DNA of 21,515 nt from a virus: the IMG/VR virus record IMGVR_UViG_3300009164_000412, positions 1 to 21,515 of that record; one strand, 5' to 3'. The first letter of the stretch is position 1, and each line of letters starts with the position of its first letter. This document shows positions 6,798 through 19,794 of the stretch, one piece after another. Below the pieces are notes generated by a model. That model saw only the letters and a list, made by a program, of their open reading frames with translations, did no database searches and had not been told where the DNA came from. A program made the translations under genes and the position numbers.

Positions 6798-7356
6798 AAA
6801 TATGTCTTTGTTCTAAAATTTTATTATAGTCTACCATTGCTTTATTGTTCATGCTAAATCCAGGTCTTTGAAGAGCAGGCATAGGGTAGCATAAATAAAA
6901 ATCCCCTCTTCCTTGCTGTGCTGTATCTATATGTTTGTCGCTTGGTGTTTCCAAAAACTTATCATAATACTTTTCATGAACTATAATGCAGTGATGCCCA
7001 ACATAAGAATTAACTTTCGTAATAGGTGCTTTGTATTCTACTGTGTAGTCAATTAAATAACTACCTCCCAAGTATATATCATAATCTCTTGGCTTGTTTT
7101 GCATAAAATACCTCCATCCTGTTTCACTTGGAAACCATATATCATCTTCCATTATACATACTTCTTTTTCCCCTCGTTCCTTAGCTTTTTTAATTATTTC
7201 TTTTTGAGATATATTTATTGAGTTTACAACGTCATTTGTTAAAATTGGACTTATAATATCATATTTAATAATGCCTTGTTTTTCCATTTCTTGTACTATC
7301 AATGGGAAGTTGTCACTCCTTCTATCATCATAAAGTATTTGTGGTATTATATCCAT
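6790..7356 (-). CDS. GT25-like glycosyltransferase
   Basis: A 188-residue protein resembling LPS/collagen-type family 25 glycosyltransferases. After an N-terminal 'ILYDDRRSDN' segment, VCIMEDDIWFP at residues 67-76 supplies the acidic metal/nucleotide-sugar site (EDD). YLGGSYL near 96 and VGHHCIIVHEKYYDKFL near 120-136 match the family pattern of a conserved G-G turn and an 'A..Yiis...a..ll' helix. D and H in HIDTA follow. It would transfer a sugar from a nucleotide donor to a glycan or protein acceptor in the cytoplasm. It overlaps fcl by 10 nt, so the donor-making gene and this transferase are co-translated. Acceptor and sugar are unknown. Confidence 0.72.
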   Translation of the reverse strand: MDIIPQILYDDRRSDNFPLIVQEMEKQGIIKYDIISPILTNDVVNSINISQKEIIKKAKERGEKEVCIMEDDIWFPSETGWRYFMQNKPRDYDIYLGGSYLIDYTVEYKAPITKVNSYVGHHCIIVHEKYYDKFLETPSDKHIDTAQQGRGDFYLCYPMPALQRPGFSMNNKAMVDYNKILEQRHIYE

Positions 7357-8276
7357 TTTGATATATCTAATGAGTCTATTGTTTTTCGTATTCCTTCTTC
7401 AAGGGAAGTTGTAGCTCTCCATCCTAGGTTGTTTATTTTAGAAACATCTAACTTCTTTCTCTTCATTCCGTCAGCTTTAGATAAATCATGTTTTATTTTC
7501 CATTTATAGCCAACTATATCGCATATTATTTCAAGTAAAGTGTTTAATTCTATATCTTCGCCCACTCCGATATTTACATGACCAAAGTCACTATAATTAT
7601 TCATTAGGAATATACACGCATCTGCACAATCTTCAGAATATAAAAATTCTCTTCTAACTGTTCCCGTTCCCCATATTTTTATTTCTTCATTTTCTTTTTT
7701 AGCTGTTATTACTTTTCTTAATAGCGCAGGGAGGACATGAGAGTTGTTTAAATCATAATTATCATTTATTCCATACAAATTAGTAGGCATAGCTGATATA
7801 AAATCACATCCATATTGCTTTCTATAAGCATCGCACATTTTTAATGCAGCAATTTTAGCTACTGCATAATATTCATTTGTTGGCTCTAATTCCCCTTGCA
7901 ATAAATATTCTTCTTTTATTGGCTGTTGGGAAAATCTTGGATATATACATGAGCTACCAAGTGCTAATAGCTTTTTAACACCACTTTTATATGATGCATG
8001 TATAATATTGCTCTGAATCATCAGGTTGTCATAAATAAAATCAGCAGGATATTTAATGTTTGCATCTATTCCACCAACTTTTCCTGCACATACAAATACG
8101 TAGTCTGGGCTTATGTATTCTATATATTTATTTACGGATTCTTGATTTCTTAAATCTAAATTTTGAGATTCCTGCACAAATATATTATCATACCCTTTTT
8201 TGGATAGTTGTCTAATAAGTGCGCTTCCCATTAGCCCATTATGACCAGATACGTATATTTTTGAGTTTTTATTCAT
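7347..8276 (-). CDS. fcl: GDP-L-fucose synthase
   Basis: A 309-residue NADP-dependent short-chain dehydrogenase/reductase of full family length. GHNGLMG (11-17) is the Rossmann loop. SSCIYP (108-113) carries the catalytic Ser and the epimerase Cys110. YYAVAK (136-141) carries the Y-x3-K pair, and NNSHVLPALLRK places the catalytic His at 180. These equal the Ser107, Cys109, Tyr136, Lys140 and His179 set known in the E. coli enzyme, so activity is likely. It converts GDP-4-keto-6-deoxy-D-mannose to GDP-L-fucose by 3,5-epimerization and reduction. Its partner gmd lies at 13922-14884 on the same strand. It overlaps the methyltransferase gene by 8 nt and the GT25-like gene by 10 nt. A GDP-6-deoxyhexose variant product cannot be excluded. 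Confidence 0.93.
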   Translation of the reverse strand: MNKNSKIYVSGHNGLMGSALIRQLSKKGYDNIFVQESQNLDLRNQESVNKYIEYISPDYVFVCAGKVGGIDANIKYPADFIYDNLMIQSNIIHASYKSGVKKLLALGSSCIYPRFSQQPIKEEYLLQGELEPTNEYYAVAKIAALKMCDAYRKQYGCDFISAMPTNLYGINDNYDLNNSHVLPALLRKVITAKKENEEIKIWGTGTVRREFLYSEDCADACIFLMNNYSDFGHVNIGVGEDIELNTLLEIICDIVGYKWKIKHDLSKADGMKRKKLDVSKINNLGWRATTSLEEGIRKTIDSLDISKWI

Positions 8277-13921: not shown

Positions 13922-14884
13922 TTATAATTTTTTTTTCCAATATTCAATCATTTCATCTAACATAGTTTCAAATGTGTATTTAGGAATCCAATTTGTTTTA
14001 TTTTTTAATTTTGTAGAATCCCCTTTTAAATCATGGAGCTCTTCTGGTCTTAAAAATTTTTTATCTTGCTTTACATAATCTTCCCATTTTAAATCTAAAT
14101 AACTAAATACATATTCACATAAATCTTTTACGGAATGGGAAATACCTGTAGAGCAAACAAAATCATCTGAATGCTCTTGTTGCAAAATGAGCCACATTGC
14201 TTCTACATAATCTTTTGCGTGACCCCAGTCTCTTGTTGCATTTAAGTTTCCTAATTTAAGTTCATTACTAAAACCAAGTTTTATTTTTACAGCCTCCTTA
14301 CAAACTTTATTTGTTACAAAGTTTGTTCCTCTTAGTGGGCTTTCGTGATTAAACAATATTCCATTTGATATAAACATATCATAAGAGTTCCTATAGTTCC
14401 TGCAAATGTTGTAAGAAAATAATTTAGCGCAACCGTATGGTGATACTGGGTTCATAGGCGTATTTTCCCTTTGATAACCATCGTTATCTATTGAGTTGCC
14501 AAACATTTCAGATGAAGATGCTTGGTATATTTTAATCCCTTTGTTTACAATTTTTACTGATTCTAATAAGTTTAACGTACCTATTCCAGTTACATTAGCA
14601 GTATATATTGGTTGGTCAAATGAAATCCTTACATGGCTTTGTGCTGCTAAGTTGTATATTTCGTCTGGTTGTATTTTTTGTATTGTGTTTATAAGGGAAG
14701 ATAAATCAGTCATATCCGCATAATGAAGACTTAATTTTTCGTAAATATTATCAAGTCTTGCAGTTTGATTTTCAGAAACAGAATTTCTTTTTAATGTGCC
14801 ATAAACTTCATACCCTTTATTTAATAAAAATTCAGATAAATAAGCTCCGTCTTGACCGTTTATCCCTGTGATTAATGCTTTCAT
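13922..14884 (-). CDS. gmd: GDP-mannose 4,6-dehydratase
   Basis: A 320-residue extended short-chain dehydrogenase. GINGQDG (7-13) is the NADP-binding loop, NLAAQSHV (78-85) is the family signature, and QASSSEMFG (121-129) carries the catalytic Ser/Thr and Glu126. SPYGCAK (148-154) gives Tyr150 and Lys154, and the LFNHESPLRG and TRDWGHAKDY blocks are typical of the family. All known catalytic residues are in place, so it should be active. It converts GDP-D-mannose to GDP-4-keto-6-deoxy-D-mannose, the substrate of Fcl (7347-8276). It is somewhat shorter than bacterial enzymes of about 350-370 residues, mainly by trimmed loops. Its ATG overlaps the upstream stop (ATGA). GDP-mannose must come from the host. 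Confidence 0.95.
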   Translation of the reverse strand: MKALITGINGQDGAYLSEFLLNKGYEVYGTLKRNSVSENQTARLDNIYEKLSLHYADMTDLSSLINTIQKIQPDEIYNLAAQSHVRISFDQPIYTANVTGIGTLNLLESVKIVNKGIKIYQASSSEMFGNSIDNDGYQRENTPMNPVSPYGCAKLFSYNICRNYRNSYDMFISNGILFNHESPLRGTNFVTNKVCKEAVKIKLGFSNELKLGNLNATRDWGHAKDYVEAMWLILQQEHSDDFVCSTGISHSVKDLCEYVFSYLDLKWEDYVKQDKKFLRPEELHDLKGDSTKLKNKTNWIPKYTFETMLDEMIEYWKKKL

Positions 14885-15264: not shown

Positions 15265-16674
15265 TTATATGCTAGAGTTTAATGGTTTCCAATTTCCGTT
15301 TGGTAATGAGCTTGATTGTATTGTATTTTCTAAAAGATGATGGTTTTTAAAATGCATTGTATTTCCTGTAAATTCCATAGCTATATTCCTTGTCGAGCCA
15401 TGTCTATTTTTAGCTACAGAACATATTGCTAATTTTTGAACGGGAAATTCTACATCTCCAATTTCTATTGGGTCTGTCATATTGTAGTATTCTGGTCTCA
15501 TTAAAAACAATACACTATCGGCATCTTGCTCAATAGCTCCAGATTCTCTCAAGTCGCTTAGCTGTGGCATTTTATCGGGTCTTGATTCTACAGCTCTACT
15601 TAACTGACTTAACGCTATTACTGGAATTTCAAGCTCTTTAGCTATACATTTTAATCCTCTGCTTATATCGGAAACTATTTGCTCTCTGTTCTTCCCCTTG
15701 GCATCAATTCCACTCATCAACTGAATATAATCTACTATGATGTATCCTATTTTATGCTTTTTCTTCAAGAGGGAAGCTCTAGTCCTTATATCCCTAATAT
15801 TCATACTAGTCTTATCTTCTATAAAAATTTTTGAGTTACTAATCTTGTCAATTGCTTGACCAAGCATCCTATCTTCTTCAGACGAGGTTTTCCCGTTCCT
15901 TATTTTTTCATGAGGAATACCAGTATCCATAGAAGCTAACCTTCTTACTAACTGAACACCATCCATCTCAAGGCTAAACCAAGCACAAGGTATATCTCCT
16001 AAAACAGAAGTGTTATAAGTTATTGATAGCGACAAAGCCGTTTTCCCCGCACCTGGTCTTGCAGCAATAATAATCAAGTCGGGAGAAACTAGTCCATTGG
16101 TAGCCTTATCTAATTCTCCAATTCCCGTCTTTATACCTAATACACCTGTTTGCTTAACTGTAGCGTGCTGTTCTAAGACCTTCATCCCAAAGTATTCGAT
16201 GTTCTTTGAAAGTCCAGAAATAACCCTTTCTTGTGCCTTCTGAATCTTATCGTCTGTACTACTTATCAAATCAAAAACATCGGTTTCATCTTCAAATGAC
16301 TTAGAAAAACCATCATGACATATGTTAATCATTTGTCTTTTAAGATACATTTCGGACAAAAGTAAAATATGATTTTCAATGTTCGCAGAACTAACTACAG
16401 AATTTGTTGTTTTTACTACCCCGTAAGTTCCCCCTGCCTCTTCCAATTTATTTTGCCTTTTAAGCTCCTCAACCACTGTTATAAGGTCAATGCCTTGGTT
16501 GGTGTCATAAAGTGTCTCTATTGCCTTAAAAATAGCCTTATATTCGATTTTATAAAACATATCCTCGAATAATCTTGACATTGCGACATTTAAGGTATCA
16601 GAATTTATTAAAAGACCTCCGATGATAGATTCTTCAATTTCTGATGATTGTGGAGGTAATTTGTCTTTAATCAT
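15265..16674 (-). CDS. dnaB: Replicative DNA helicase, DnaB family
   Basis: A 469-residue protein of normal DnaB length. LPPQSSEIEESIIGGLL (6-22) starts the N-terminal helical domain. The RecA-like domain has IIIAARPGAGKTALSLSI (Walker A, near 200-217), CAWFSLEM, IGYIIVDYIQLM (Walker B, near 307-318), PVIALSQLSRAVE, and LRESGAIEQDADSVLFL (the DnaB4/5 region with arginine finger and sensor residues). It unwinds DNA 5' to 3' at the fork as a hexamer and probably depends on the loader or initiator encoded immediately upstream, whose stop overlaps its start by 8 nt. The Walker and arginine-finger regions look intact. No intein is seen. Confidence 0.96.
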   Translation of the reverse strand: MIKDKLPPQSSEIEESIIGGLLINSDTLNVAMSRLFEDMFYKIEYKAIFKAIETLYDTNQGIDLITVVEELKRQNKLEEAGGTYGVVKTTNSVVSSANIENHILLLSEMYLKRQMINICHDGFSKSFEDETDVFDLISSTDDKIQKAQERVISGLSKNIEYFGMKVLEQHATVKQTGVLGIKTGIGELDKATNGLVSPDLIIIAARPGAGKTALSLSITYNTSVLGDIPCAWFSLEMDGVQLVRRLASMDTGIPHEKIRNGKTSSEEDRMLGQAIDKISNSKIFIEDKTSMNIRDIRTRASLLKKKHKIGYIIVDYIQLMSGIDAKGKNREQIVSDISRGLKCIAKELEIPVIALSQLSRAVESRPDKMPQLSDLRESGAIEQDADSVLFLMRPEYYNMTDPIEIGDVEFPVQKLAICSVAKNRHGSTRNIAMEFTGNTMHFKNHHLLENTIQSSSLPNGNWKPLNSSI

Positions 16675-17431
16675 GGCTAGGGGAAGTTATAGATTTTAGT
16701 TTTATTTTTATTGGCTGCTGCTGTGGATTATATTTTTGATTTTTATTAGCTTCATTTTTAAGCCAAGCAGAAATATAATTAATCGCAAGCACTTCCCAAT
16801 TTTTTATTGGGCTACCATTACAAAACCATTCAACACTTTCCCATTTATTAAAAAAACCATTTGCCATTATTTCTGTACCACCTGACATTATAAATTTTTC
16901 TTTAACTTTTTCAAAAGTTGGAATATTTGGTTTTCTAAAAAGATTTGAATCTGCAATTGTTAAATTATTTTCTTTTTCATTTTTATAATTACTTTTATCT
17001 TTAACCATATCCATATCCTTATCTTTATCCTTAATGATTATGGAATCATTATCTAATGATTCATTAACGATTATGTAATCATTACCAAATGATTCAGGTA
17101 TCAAATTTAATAAGTTATTGGTTTTCAATTCTTTAACAATTGAAACTATTACAGGCTTATTACTTTTTAAAGTTGAATATTGAAATTTTAAAAATTTAGG
17201 AATAAACCATATATTATCTTTAATTATTAATCTTCCTTCCATTTCTAAAATTAATTCATCTTCGGTAGCTTTTGTATTGCACATAAAATTCAAAAGTTTT
17301 ATGCTTCTTTTACAAATTCCTGCATGGTTACAATTATCCAATAACCATTGCCAAATGATTCTGTAATCATTATTTAATGATACAAACCAATCGTCTTTCC
17401 ATTTTTCTGTGTCTGTGTACCTTTTTGCCAT
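16667..17431 (-). CDS. Replication initiator / helicase loader-like protein containing putative origin repeats
   Basis: A 254-residue protein. The N-terminal 110 residues (KRYTDTEKWKDDWF, IIWQWLLDNCNHAGI, LIIKDNIWFIPKFLKFQY) resemble the winged-helix domain found in phage replication proteins of the lambda O/DnaD-like group. An Asp/Lys-rich linker (about 125-150, KDKDKDMDMVKDK) leads to a C-terminal helical part (FEKVKEKFI, FFNKWESVEWFCNGSPIKNWEVLAINYISAWLKNEA). Adjacent, overlapping dnaB supports a helicase-loading or initiation role. Two clusters of 11-bp phased repeats lie inside the gene, as the lambda origin lies inside O. It carries no GGGAA/TTCCC site beyond its first few bases in the left third, unlike neighbours. 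The winged-helix call is tentative. Confidence 0.7.
   Translation of the reverse strand: MAKRYTDTEKWKDDWFVSLNNDYRIIWQWLLDNCNHAGICKRSIKLLNFMCNTKATEDELILEMEGRLIIKDNIWFIPKFLKFQYSTLKSNKPVIVSIVKELKTNNLLNLIPESFGNDYIIVNESLDNDSIIIKDKDKDMDMVKDKSNYKNEKENNLTIADSNLFRKPNIPTFEKVKEKFIMSGGTEIMANGFFNKWESVEWFCNGSPIKNWEVLAINYISAWLKNEANKNQKYNPQQQPIKIKLKSITSPSHD
17032..17098. repeat. Iteron cluster A: six 11-bp phased AATGATT/AATCATT units (putative origin)
   Basis: Units start at 17033, 17044, 17055, 17066, 17077 and 17088, exactly 11 bp apart: AATGATT, AATCATT, AATGATT, AACGATT, AATCATT, AATGATT. Five are exact copies of one strand or the other and the fourth differs at one base. The period is not a multiple of three, so it does not come from a protein repeat. 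It lies in the linker-coding part of the initiator gene. Known iteron origins bind initiators on one helix face with about this spacing; that role here is inferred. Confidence 0.72.
17343..17382. repeat. Iteron cluster B: four 11-bp phased units near the initiator start
   Basis: Units begin at 17343 (AACCATT), 17354 (AATGATT), 17365 (AATCATT) and 17376 (AATGATA), again exactly 11 bp apart. Two are exact and two differ by one base. Two 11-mers recur from cluster A: CCAAATGATTC (17085-17095 and 17351-17361) and TGTAATCATTA (17074-17084 and 17362-17372), with their order reversed. The cluster lies in the 5' coding part of the same gene, about 320 bp away. It may be a second initiator-binding site, for looping or autoregulation. 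Confidence 0.62.
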
Positions 17432-17445
17432 ATAAAAAAAATTAA

Positions 17446-17575
17446 GGGTAGTATCCTGCTGTTGCTAAATAATCATAACTTGCTTATAGAAAAGCAGATT
17501 TGAATATCAACAGGAACTACCCAATATTTTAATAAATTGTTTTTTGAAAAAATCACTTGTTATAATTATTTAGCA
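17446..17575 (-). promoter_or_regulatory. Structured 5' leader with two interleaved inverted repeats upstream of the initiator gene
   Basis: Pair 1: 17446-17464 against 17508-17522 (GGGTAGT...TCCTG...TTG, with two small bulges). Pair 2: 17463-17479 against 17559-17575 (TGCTAAATAATCATAAC, 16 of 17 bases paired). The arms alternate (1-2-1-2), so in RNA they can form either a pseudoknot or two competing hairpins. The right edge meets a predicted minus-strand start near 17572, and the left arm ends about 15 nt before the ATG at 17431. No small ORF is evident. A cis-acting leader RNA, an attachment/operator structure or a small RNA are all possible. Confidence 0.5.
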
Positions 17576-17578
17576 CTA

Positions 17579-17609
17579 CAAAGATAAACAAGTTTTTTAA
17601 TTAACCAAA
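17579..17609 (-). promoter_or_regulatory. Bacteroidota-type promoter for the replication operon
   Basis: On the minus strand, TTTGG (17605-17609) precedes an 18-nt spacer and TATCTTTG (17579-17586), matching TTTG...TAnnTTTG with slightly short spacing. It sits in the 178-nt gap upstream of the initiator, so it would start the message near 17572 and produce a leader of about 140 nt. The -7 element is perfect. The -33 match overlaps the end of the upstream gene. Confidence 0.5.
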
Positions 17610-19152: not shown

Positions 19153-19794
19153 ATGCCTAATTTAATATTAACAAATAAAAGAGTAGGAACTACTGTTTAT
19201 ATTTGTGATGTAGAAAAAAAGAAATTACCATGCGGAATCTCTCCAAGAAGAATATTGGTTAAATGCGATTGTGGAAAAACAAAGGAATTATTATTATTAC
19301 ATTGGATAAGAGGTAGGATAAAGTGTATTTGTATAACAAAAAAAGAAAAACATGGAGATGTAGGCTCTAAATTACATAATACATGGAGGGCTATGAAAAA
19401 CAGATGTTCTAAAAATTATTTTCAAAAAAAATATTACTACGAAAAAAACATTTCTGTTTGTGATAAATGGAAAATGTATTCAGAATTTAAAAAATGGGCT
19501 TTGCTAAATAATTATAAAGATGGCTTACAAATAGATAGGATTGATAACAGCAAGGGCTATTATCCCGAAAATTGCAGATTTGTTACACAAGAGGAAAACA
19601 TGGCAAATAGAGACGTAACAATAAAAATAAAACACAATGGAGAGCTTGTTCCATTAACAAAAATGATAAAAATATATAATAAAGATAATTATTATTATAA
19701 TAATGTATTGCATAGAATTAATAGAGGATGGGATTACGAGAAAGCATTTTTTACTCCAACTAGAAATGGAAATTATAAAAGAAAAAATAACTAA
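19153..19794 (+). CDS. HNH homing-type endonuclease
   Basis: A 213-residue basic protein. The N-terminal part (RRILVKCDCGKTKELLLLHWIRG, KCIC) carries a Cys-based zinc site. HNTWRAMKNRCSKNYF (75-90) and VCDKWKMYSEFKKWAL precede LQIDRIDNSKGYYPENCRFVTQEENMANR (125-153), the core of the HNH nucleases found as free-standing homing endonucleases in phages. The C-terminal KMIKIYNKDNYYYNNVLHRINRGWDYEKAFF (170-200) resembles a NUMOD-type DNA-binding repeat. It would nick or cut a specific site to spread its own gene. It contains no GGGAA/TTCCC site, consistent with recent arrival. No intron is visible around it. Confidence 0.78.
   Translation: MPNLILTNKRVGTTVYICDVEKKKLPCGISPRRILVKCDCGKTKELLLLHWIRGRIKCICITKKEKHGDVGSKLHNTWRAMKNRCSKNYFQKKYYYEKNISVCDKWKMYSEFKKWALLNNYKDGLQIDRIDNSKGYYPENCRFVTQEENMANRDVTIKIKHNGELVPLTKMIKIYNKDNYYYNNVLHRINRGWDYEKAFFTPTRNGNYKRKNN

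Follow-up and report, generated by a model that had tools for sequence, protein, structure and literature searches.

Layout of the leader

What does the long, internally complementary leader between a promoter and the ATG at 17431 do for the phage gene that follows it? The window, i.e., the whole stretch of DNA analyzed, is the complete IMG/VR record IMGVR_UViG_3300009164_000412 (21,515 bases) of a tailed phage. The initial annotation had described the leader as a candidate structured RNA or pseudoknot controlling replication, in which two long dyads, one with 16 of 17 bases paired, alternate as 1-2-1-2 after a start near 17572. On the minus strand, the promoter TTTG-N19-TATCTTTG occupies 17609–17579. 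Its −33 box, TTTG (17606–17609), is separated by 19 nt from the −7 box, TATCTTTG (17579–17586), which fits the Bacteroidota consensus TAnnTTTG. The consensus and spacing were taken from a study that mapped the −7 box at −12 to −5 (PMC6847099), and because of this published position the predicted start is 17574, within the first bases of arm 1.

All four arms were located on the minus strand, in the order 1-2-1′-2′ along the RNA. Arm 1 (17559–17575) forms the predicted 5′ end of the RNA, arm 2 (17508–17522) and arm 2′ (17446–17461) are the 5′ and 3′ strands of a hairpin, and arm 1′ (17463–17479) lies inside the loop of that hairpin. Arm 2′ leads straight into TTAATTTTTTTTAT, and for this reason the 2:2′ hairpin was assigned as an intrinsic terminator, completed by a U-rich tract (17432–17445) directly 5′ of the start codon. 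Helix 1:1′ has 17 pairs (16 Watson-Crick and one G-U), and helix 2:2′ has 15 pairs and a one-base bulge. The arms in the window were set by hand and by helix scoring, since ungapped detection missed this locus owing to the 2:2′ bulge. None of 300 dinucleotide shuffles of the leader contained a helix as good as 1:1′, and the score of the interleaved pair, 52.0, was reached in 0 of the 300 (shuffled maximum, 45.5). RNA folding of the leader favored the 2:2′ hairpin, with −34.7 kcal/mol and a z-score of −3.1. The layout, terminator shape, and complementarity can be read directly off the sequence, and support for the architecture is good.

The two dyads and their order were thus as first described, with the predicted start shifted from 17572 to 17574. 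The last arm does lie near the start codon, at 14 nt rather than about 15. The initial annotation had also proposed that this arm gates translation, and had overlooked that it runs into a U-run and forms a terminator. A hairpin or pseudoknot that hides the initiator start region from ribosomes would suit the 14-nt distance, and in Flavobacterium translation is reduced by structure close to the start (PMC6847099); however, the U-run behind the hairpin points to termination, and the design leaves the start codon itself unpaired. Control at translation is accordingly quite unlikely as the main function.

A family of leaders with the same layout

The window leader belongs to a large RNA family that appears to be undescribed. 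Leaders of IMG/VR homologs of the initiator protein were unrelated in sequence but had the same layout (e.g., L019, L021, L017, L001, L022, L014, L047, and L231), and 10 of 61 leaders found in this way reached a fixed score of at least 45, compared with 0 of 122 shuffles. The common layout consists of a promoter, arm 1, a terminator hairpin that carries the complement of arm 1 (1′) in its loop, a U-run, and the ATG. The common form presents arm 1 in a short 5′ hairpin, as a 7-nt loop that kisses the terminator loop. In a rarer form with five members (the window, L014, L022, L193, and L400), arm 1 is linear, 13–18 nt long, and located at the predicted 5′ end. The window has the Bacteroidota promoter with its +1 (17574) at arm 1 (17575–17559), and its terminator loop holds the complement of arm 1, followed by the U-run and the start codon. 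Instead of a 5′ hairpin with a loop of about 7 nt, it has a linear arm 1 of 17 nt, and the terminator loop pairs with approximately the first 17 nt of the RNA itself; it is an outlying member of the family, without the 5′ hairpin of the common form.

A structure-free pattern comprising only promoter box, spacing, and U-run (−7 box, a gap of 68–98 nt, and CTTTTTTATTTTATG) gave at least 120 matches in IMG/VR, in which the conservation of the promoter box and U-run is fixed by the search pattern itself. The version with a gap of 99–129 nt gave 13 matches across the whole collection. Among the matches listed, total length peaked sharply at 102–105 nt, about 28 different loop sequences were present, and in 71 of 76 distinct elements the 5′ hairpin loop could form six or more contiguous Watson-Crick pairs with the 3′ half. 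Such pairing was seen in 9% of controls in which 3′ halves were exchanged between members and in 6% of those in which they were shuffled. Several of the five elements that fell short proved on inspection to be mis-parsed hairpins, and two elements (L335 and L380) look like chance matches.

No Rfam family scored at or above its gathering threshold, and a permissive search gave chance-level matches only, in agreement with the initial annotation, in which no known riboswitch or family had been recognized. A BLAST comparison of the window leader with phage genomes yielded only AT-rich chance matches, and one of family members with phages and plasmids yielded nothing; the family is therefore not findable by nucleotide similarity. 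Sequence-based RNA searches are blind to such an element, in which the letters change freely and the pairing is kept. No description of such an element was found in the open-access literature. In 395 plus 99 host genomes, the exact pattern, which is strict, did not occur, so that a host chromosomal origin is unsupported, and no element was found before the initiator gene of Riemerella phage CRP6.

Compensatory changes in the paired arms

Covariation was counted in an alignment of 55 members (A3), using a named structure of 22 pairs; the counts do not speak for the window's linear form, which has only five members. With phylogeny ignored in these counts, 83% of the cells of the whole structure were paired, and 300 two-sided changes were observed, compared with 99 in shuffled alignments and 66–106 with partners slid. 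Two-sided changes occurred at 7/7 pairs of the kissing helix, in 84 cells, compared with 22 shuffled and 5–24 slid. RNAalifold recovered the terminator helix only in part, as stems shift by one base between subgroups, and the named structure was the basis of the counts for P1 and the kissing helix.

A close pair of phages makes the same point as these counts. L366 and L385 have downstream genes that are 99% identical over 499 nt and share the 5′ stem and linker, and both loops are switched together, from GTCGGAT/ATCCGAC to GTTGCAG/CTGCAAC. Beyond the loops, the two leaders differ only in a few apical-stem bases beside them. The pairing itself, rather than the letters, thus appears to have been kept by evolution. 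Stems vary about as much as loops across the family, and much of the leader diversity could have arisen by compensated drift.

A DNA operator or recombination site, named earlier as the alternative should the arms be conserved without covariation, is extremely improbable. Dimeric proteins can bind dyads, but among relatives the arm letters differ freely, and what is retained is their complementarity, which spans about 50 nt in an interleaved arrangement.

Genes downstream of the leaders

In the window, the leader precedes a replication initiator operon. The putatively regulated gene (16667–17431, minus strand; ATG at 17431) encodes a replication-initiator-like protein of 254 amino acids that has relatives; it matched no Pfam family and only weakly a PHROG of unknown function. 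The same operon continues with a gene for the DnaB replicative helicase (15265–16674, minus strand; Pfam DnaB_C, E = 1.9e-88). The hexamer AATGAT/ATCATT occurs eight times inside the initiator gene, in two clusters (17033–17093 and 17343–17381), compared with a mean of 1.4 and a maximum of 5 copies in shuffles; the clusters resemble the iterons of an origin.

Among the matches listed, 59 of 75 elements (approximately 79%) had an initiator-like or DnaB match on the same strand within 3.5 kb downstream, and 2 of 75 had one upstream. The initiators behind the leaders belong to DUF1376, DUF6291, Lin1244-like, and HTH_36 families and to the window's own, and their PHROGs names are mostly replication initiation protein, DnaD-like helicase loader, and replisome organizer. 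Most exceptions look, by eye, like recombination or primase operons (ERF-like or primase-like). In L320, L363, and L295, the element stands before genes that by eye resemble ERF-like recombinase or helicase/primase genes, suggesting a wider role before DNA-metabolism operons. Genes resembling homing endonucleases sometimes sit between the leader and the replication genes.

This context argues against a stable, trans-acting small RNA gene with its own promoter and terminator, from which readthrough into the replication genes would be incidental. Such a gene would explain the complete promoter–RNA–terminator unit, its constant length, and loops exposed for pairing; however, the element almost always leads into a replication operon, as the downstream and upstream counts above illustrate, and its U-run abuts the start codon. 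We regard this explanation as rather unlikely. The earlier description of a structured leader controlling replication is upheld in its structure, strongly, by the compensatory changes that it had called for (7/7 kissing pairs in 55 aligned relatives), and in its link to replication by the gene context.

L366 and L374 carry identical leaders before initiators without detectable similarity, and the leader is therefore a module that can go with different initiator proteins. Unrelated first genes likewise follow identical leaders in L340 and L386. The leader, as judged from these two pairs, moves as a cassette. Autoregulation by the initiator was considered and rejected, as unrelated initiators follow identical leaders (L366 and L374). 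It is also very unlikely that the leader RNA primes or marks a replication origin in the manner of the ColE1 primer: the initiator gene adjoins the leader and contains the iteron-like repeats, but a primer has no need of a terminator before the gene, unrelated initiators follow the same leader, and no DNA sequence is conserved.

Leader types in isolated Flavobacterium phages

The element was found before the replication protein of Flavobacterium phage vB_FspP_elemoA (laboratory host, Flavobacterium sp. BAL314), which provides both a host phylum and a test system, and with isolated phages the element is testable now. In the elemoA leader, the RNA is predicted to start 5 nt after TATNTTTG. The elemo phages of one Flavobacterium host strain carry three leader types, with loops GTGAGATG, TGAGAGC, and GTGGAGG, each accompanied by its complement, and these sit in near-identical or related genomes (L404, approximately 1600–1750 of MT497083.1; L407; and L408). 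Between elemoA_11-9C and elemoA_1-5B, the leaders are 71–72% identical, and both flanks are mostly 93–100% identical. Other blocks of the elemo genomes also recombine, with allele replacement elsewhere too. The divergence of the elemoA leaders supports diversifying selection, short of proof.

Proposed mechanism

We consider it fairly likely that the element attenuates transcription of the phage replication operon close to its promoter and that it is set by RNA–RNA pairing, plausibly with feedback by the terminated leader in trans. RNA polymerase starting at approximately 17574 would copy the arms in the order 1-2-1′-2′. Folding of the 2:2′ hairpin over the U-run would stop transcription just before the initiator ATG, giving a leader RNA of approximately 130–140 nt, whereas earlier capture of arm 1′ by arm 1 would hinder the terminator and allow the initiator and DnaB genes to be transcribed. 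An antiterminating role of 1:1′ is favored because arm 1′ is made before arm 2′, and an early 1:1′ helix should delay the terminator; the two helices could also coexist as a pseudoknot, with either sign of regulation. We infer termination at the U-run from the sequence, and regulation of readthrough by the pairing from its placement and conservation. In this manner, the element probably sets the timing of phage DNA replication.

The most probable signal is the RNA–RNA pairing itself. The loops vary freely while their complementarity is kept, which argues against a small-molecule sensor or a sequence-specific protein and fits either structural upkeep or RNA–RNA specificity in trans. Terminated leaders with the same loops, once accumulated, might pair with either arm 1 or arm 1′ of newly made transcripts; the outcome would be a copy-number-like feedback, together with interference between related phages that depends on their loops, and could serve copy control or superinfection specificity. 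This step in trans, taken alone, is proposed tentatively.

A cis-only attenuator, in which the loop pairing merely times the folding of the terminator and no RNA acts in trans, is possible, though on the unlikely side. The signal would then be a host or phage factor, such as a Nus factor, an antiterminator protein, or polymerase speed, and the loop letters would drift under compensation. The anatomy and the covariation are equally expected in this case, as are stem variation equal to that of the loops and a leader modular relative to the initiator genes. On the other hand, the loop switches in otherwise near-identical phages (L366 and L385) and the divergent leaders within near-identical flanks in elemoA exceed what slow drift would lead one to expect.

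RNA-based immunity or incompatibility might be widespread in Bacteroidota phages, including virulent-looking ones, with loops diversifying as specificity types, as would plasmid incompatibility determinants. Each self-complementary leader would then limit, in trans, transcription of the replication genes of phages with the same loops. We regard this extension as somewhat doubtful. The leader element itself could show how phages without repressor-type immunity control their copy number or exclude each other.

Comparison with known RNA regulators

The known kind to which the element belongs is that of RNA attenuators of replication genes, and its kissing-loop design is apparently undescribed. 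In plasmids pT181 and pIP501, a terminator likewise stands ahead of the replication initiator gene and is controlled by RNA pairing with specificity set by loops, but the pairing RNA comes from a separate convergent antisense promoter. Here, a consensus promoter on the opposite strand was found in 0 of 120 elements and was likewise absent from the window leader. The repZ leaders of IncB/IncI plasmids also combine loop-distal pairing with a replication initiator gene; there, the pseudoknot activates translation, whereas here an intrinsic terminator forms the 3′ partner. The preQ1 and SAM-II riboswitches are similarly compact pseudoknots upstream of a gene, but no conserved unpaired core was present here outside the promoter, linker, and U-run that could serve a ligand, and the pairing segments are free in sequence. 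The c4 antisense RNA of phages P1 and P7 (Rfam RF01695) is alike in that phage RNA segments are complementary to sites on the same transcript, and differs in that the present family matched neither c4 nor any other Rfam entry.

The nearest known system in function, by analogy, is the immunity of phage P4 (CI RNA with seqA/seqC), in which a small RNA made from the replication-operon leader pairs and thereby causes premature termination (PMC4825925). Both systems involve a replication-operon leader and complementary segments on one transcript, and RNA–RNA pairing controls premature termination in P4 and would do so here. In P4, a processed CI RNA pairs with two sites (PMC4825925), whereas here the terminator loop would pair with the 5′ part of a leader of approximately 100–140 nt; the sequences are unrelated. 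The present element would represent a common, undescribed RNA control element at the DNA-replication decision point of many Bacteroidota phages.

Other features of the window

An exact 16-nt copy of arm 1 (TGCTAAATAATTATAA) was found at 19502–19517 on the plus strand, inside an ORF (19153–19794) of unknown family that is endonuclease-like by eye. Copies of arm 1 in shuffled windows were at most 14 nt long, and no such copy was seen in the other long-arm loci. The mRNA of this ORF could pair with arm 1′; the copy is possibly due to chance. By eye, the ORFs at 7347–8276 and 13922–14884 resemble GDP-fucose synthase and GDP-mannose 4,6-dehydratase, respectively, and the many glycosyltransferase-like ORFs around them, also judged by eye, point to a sugar-nucleotide cluster in this phage.
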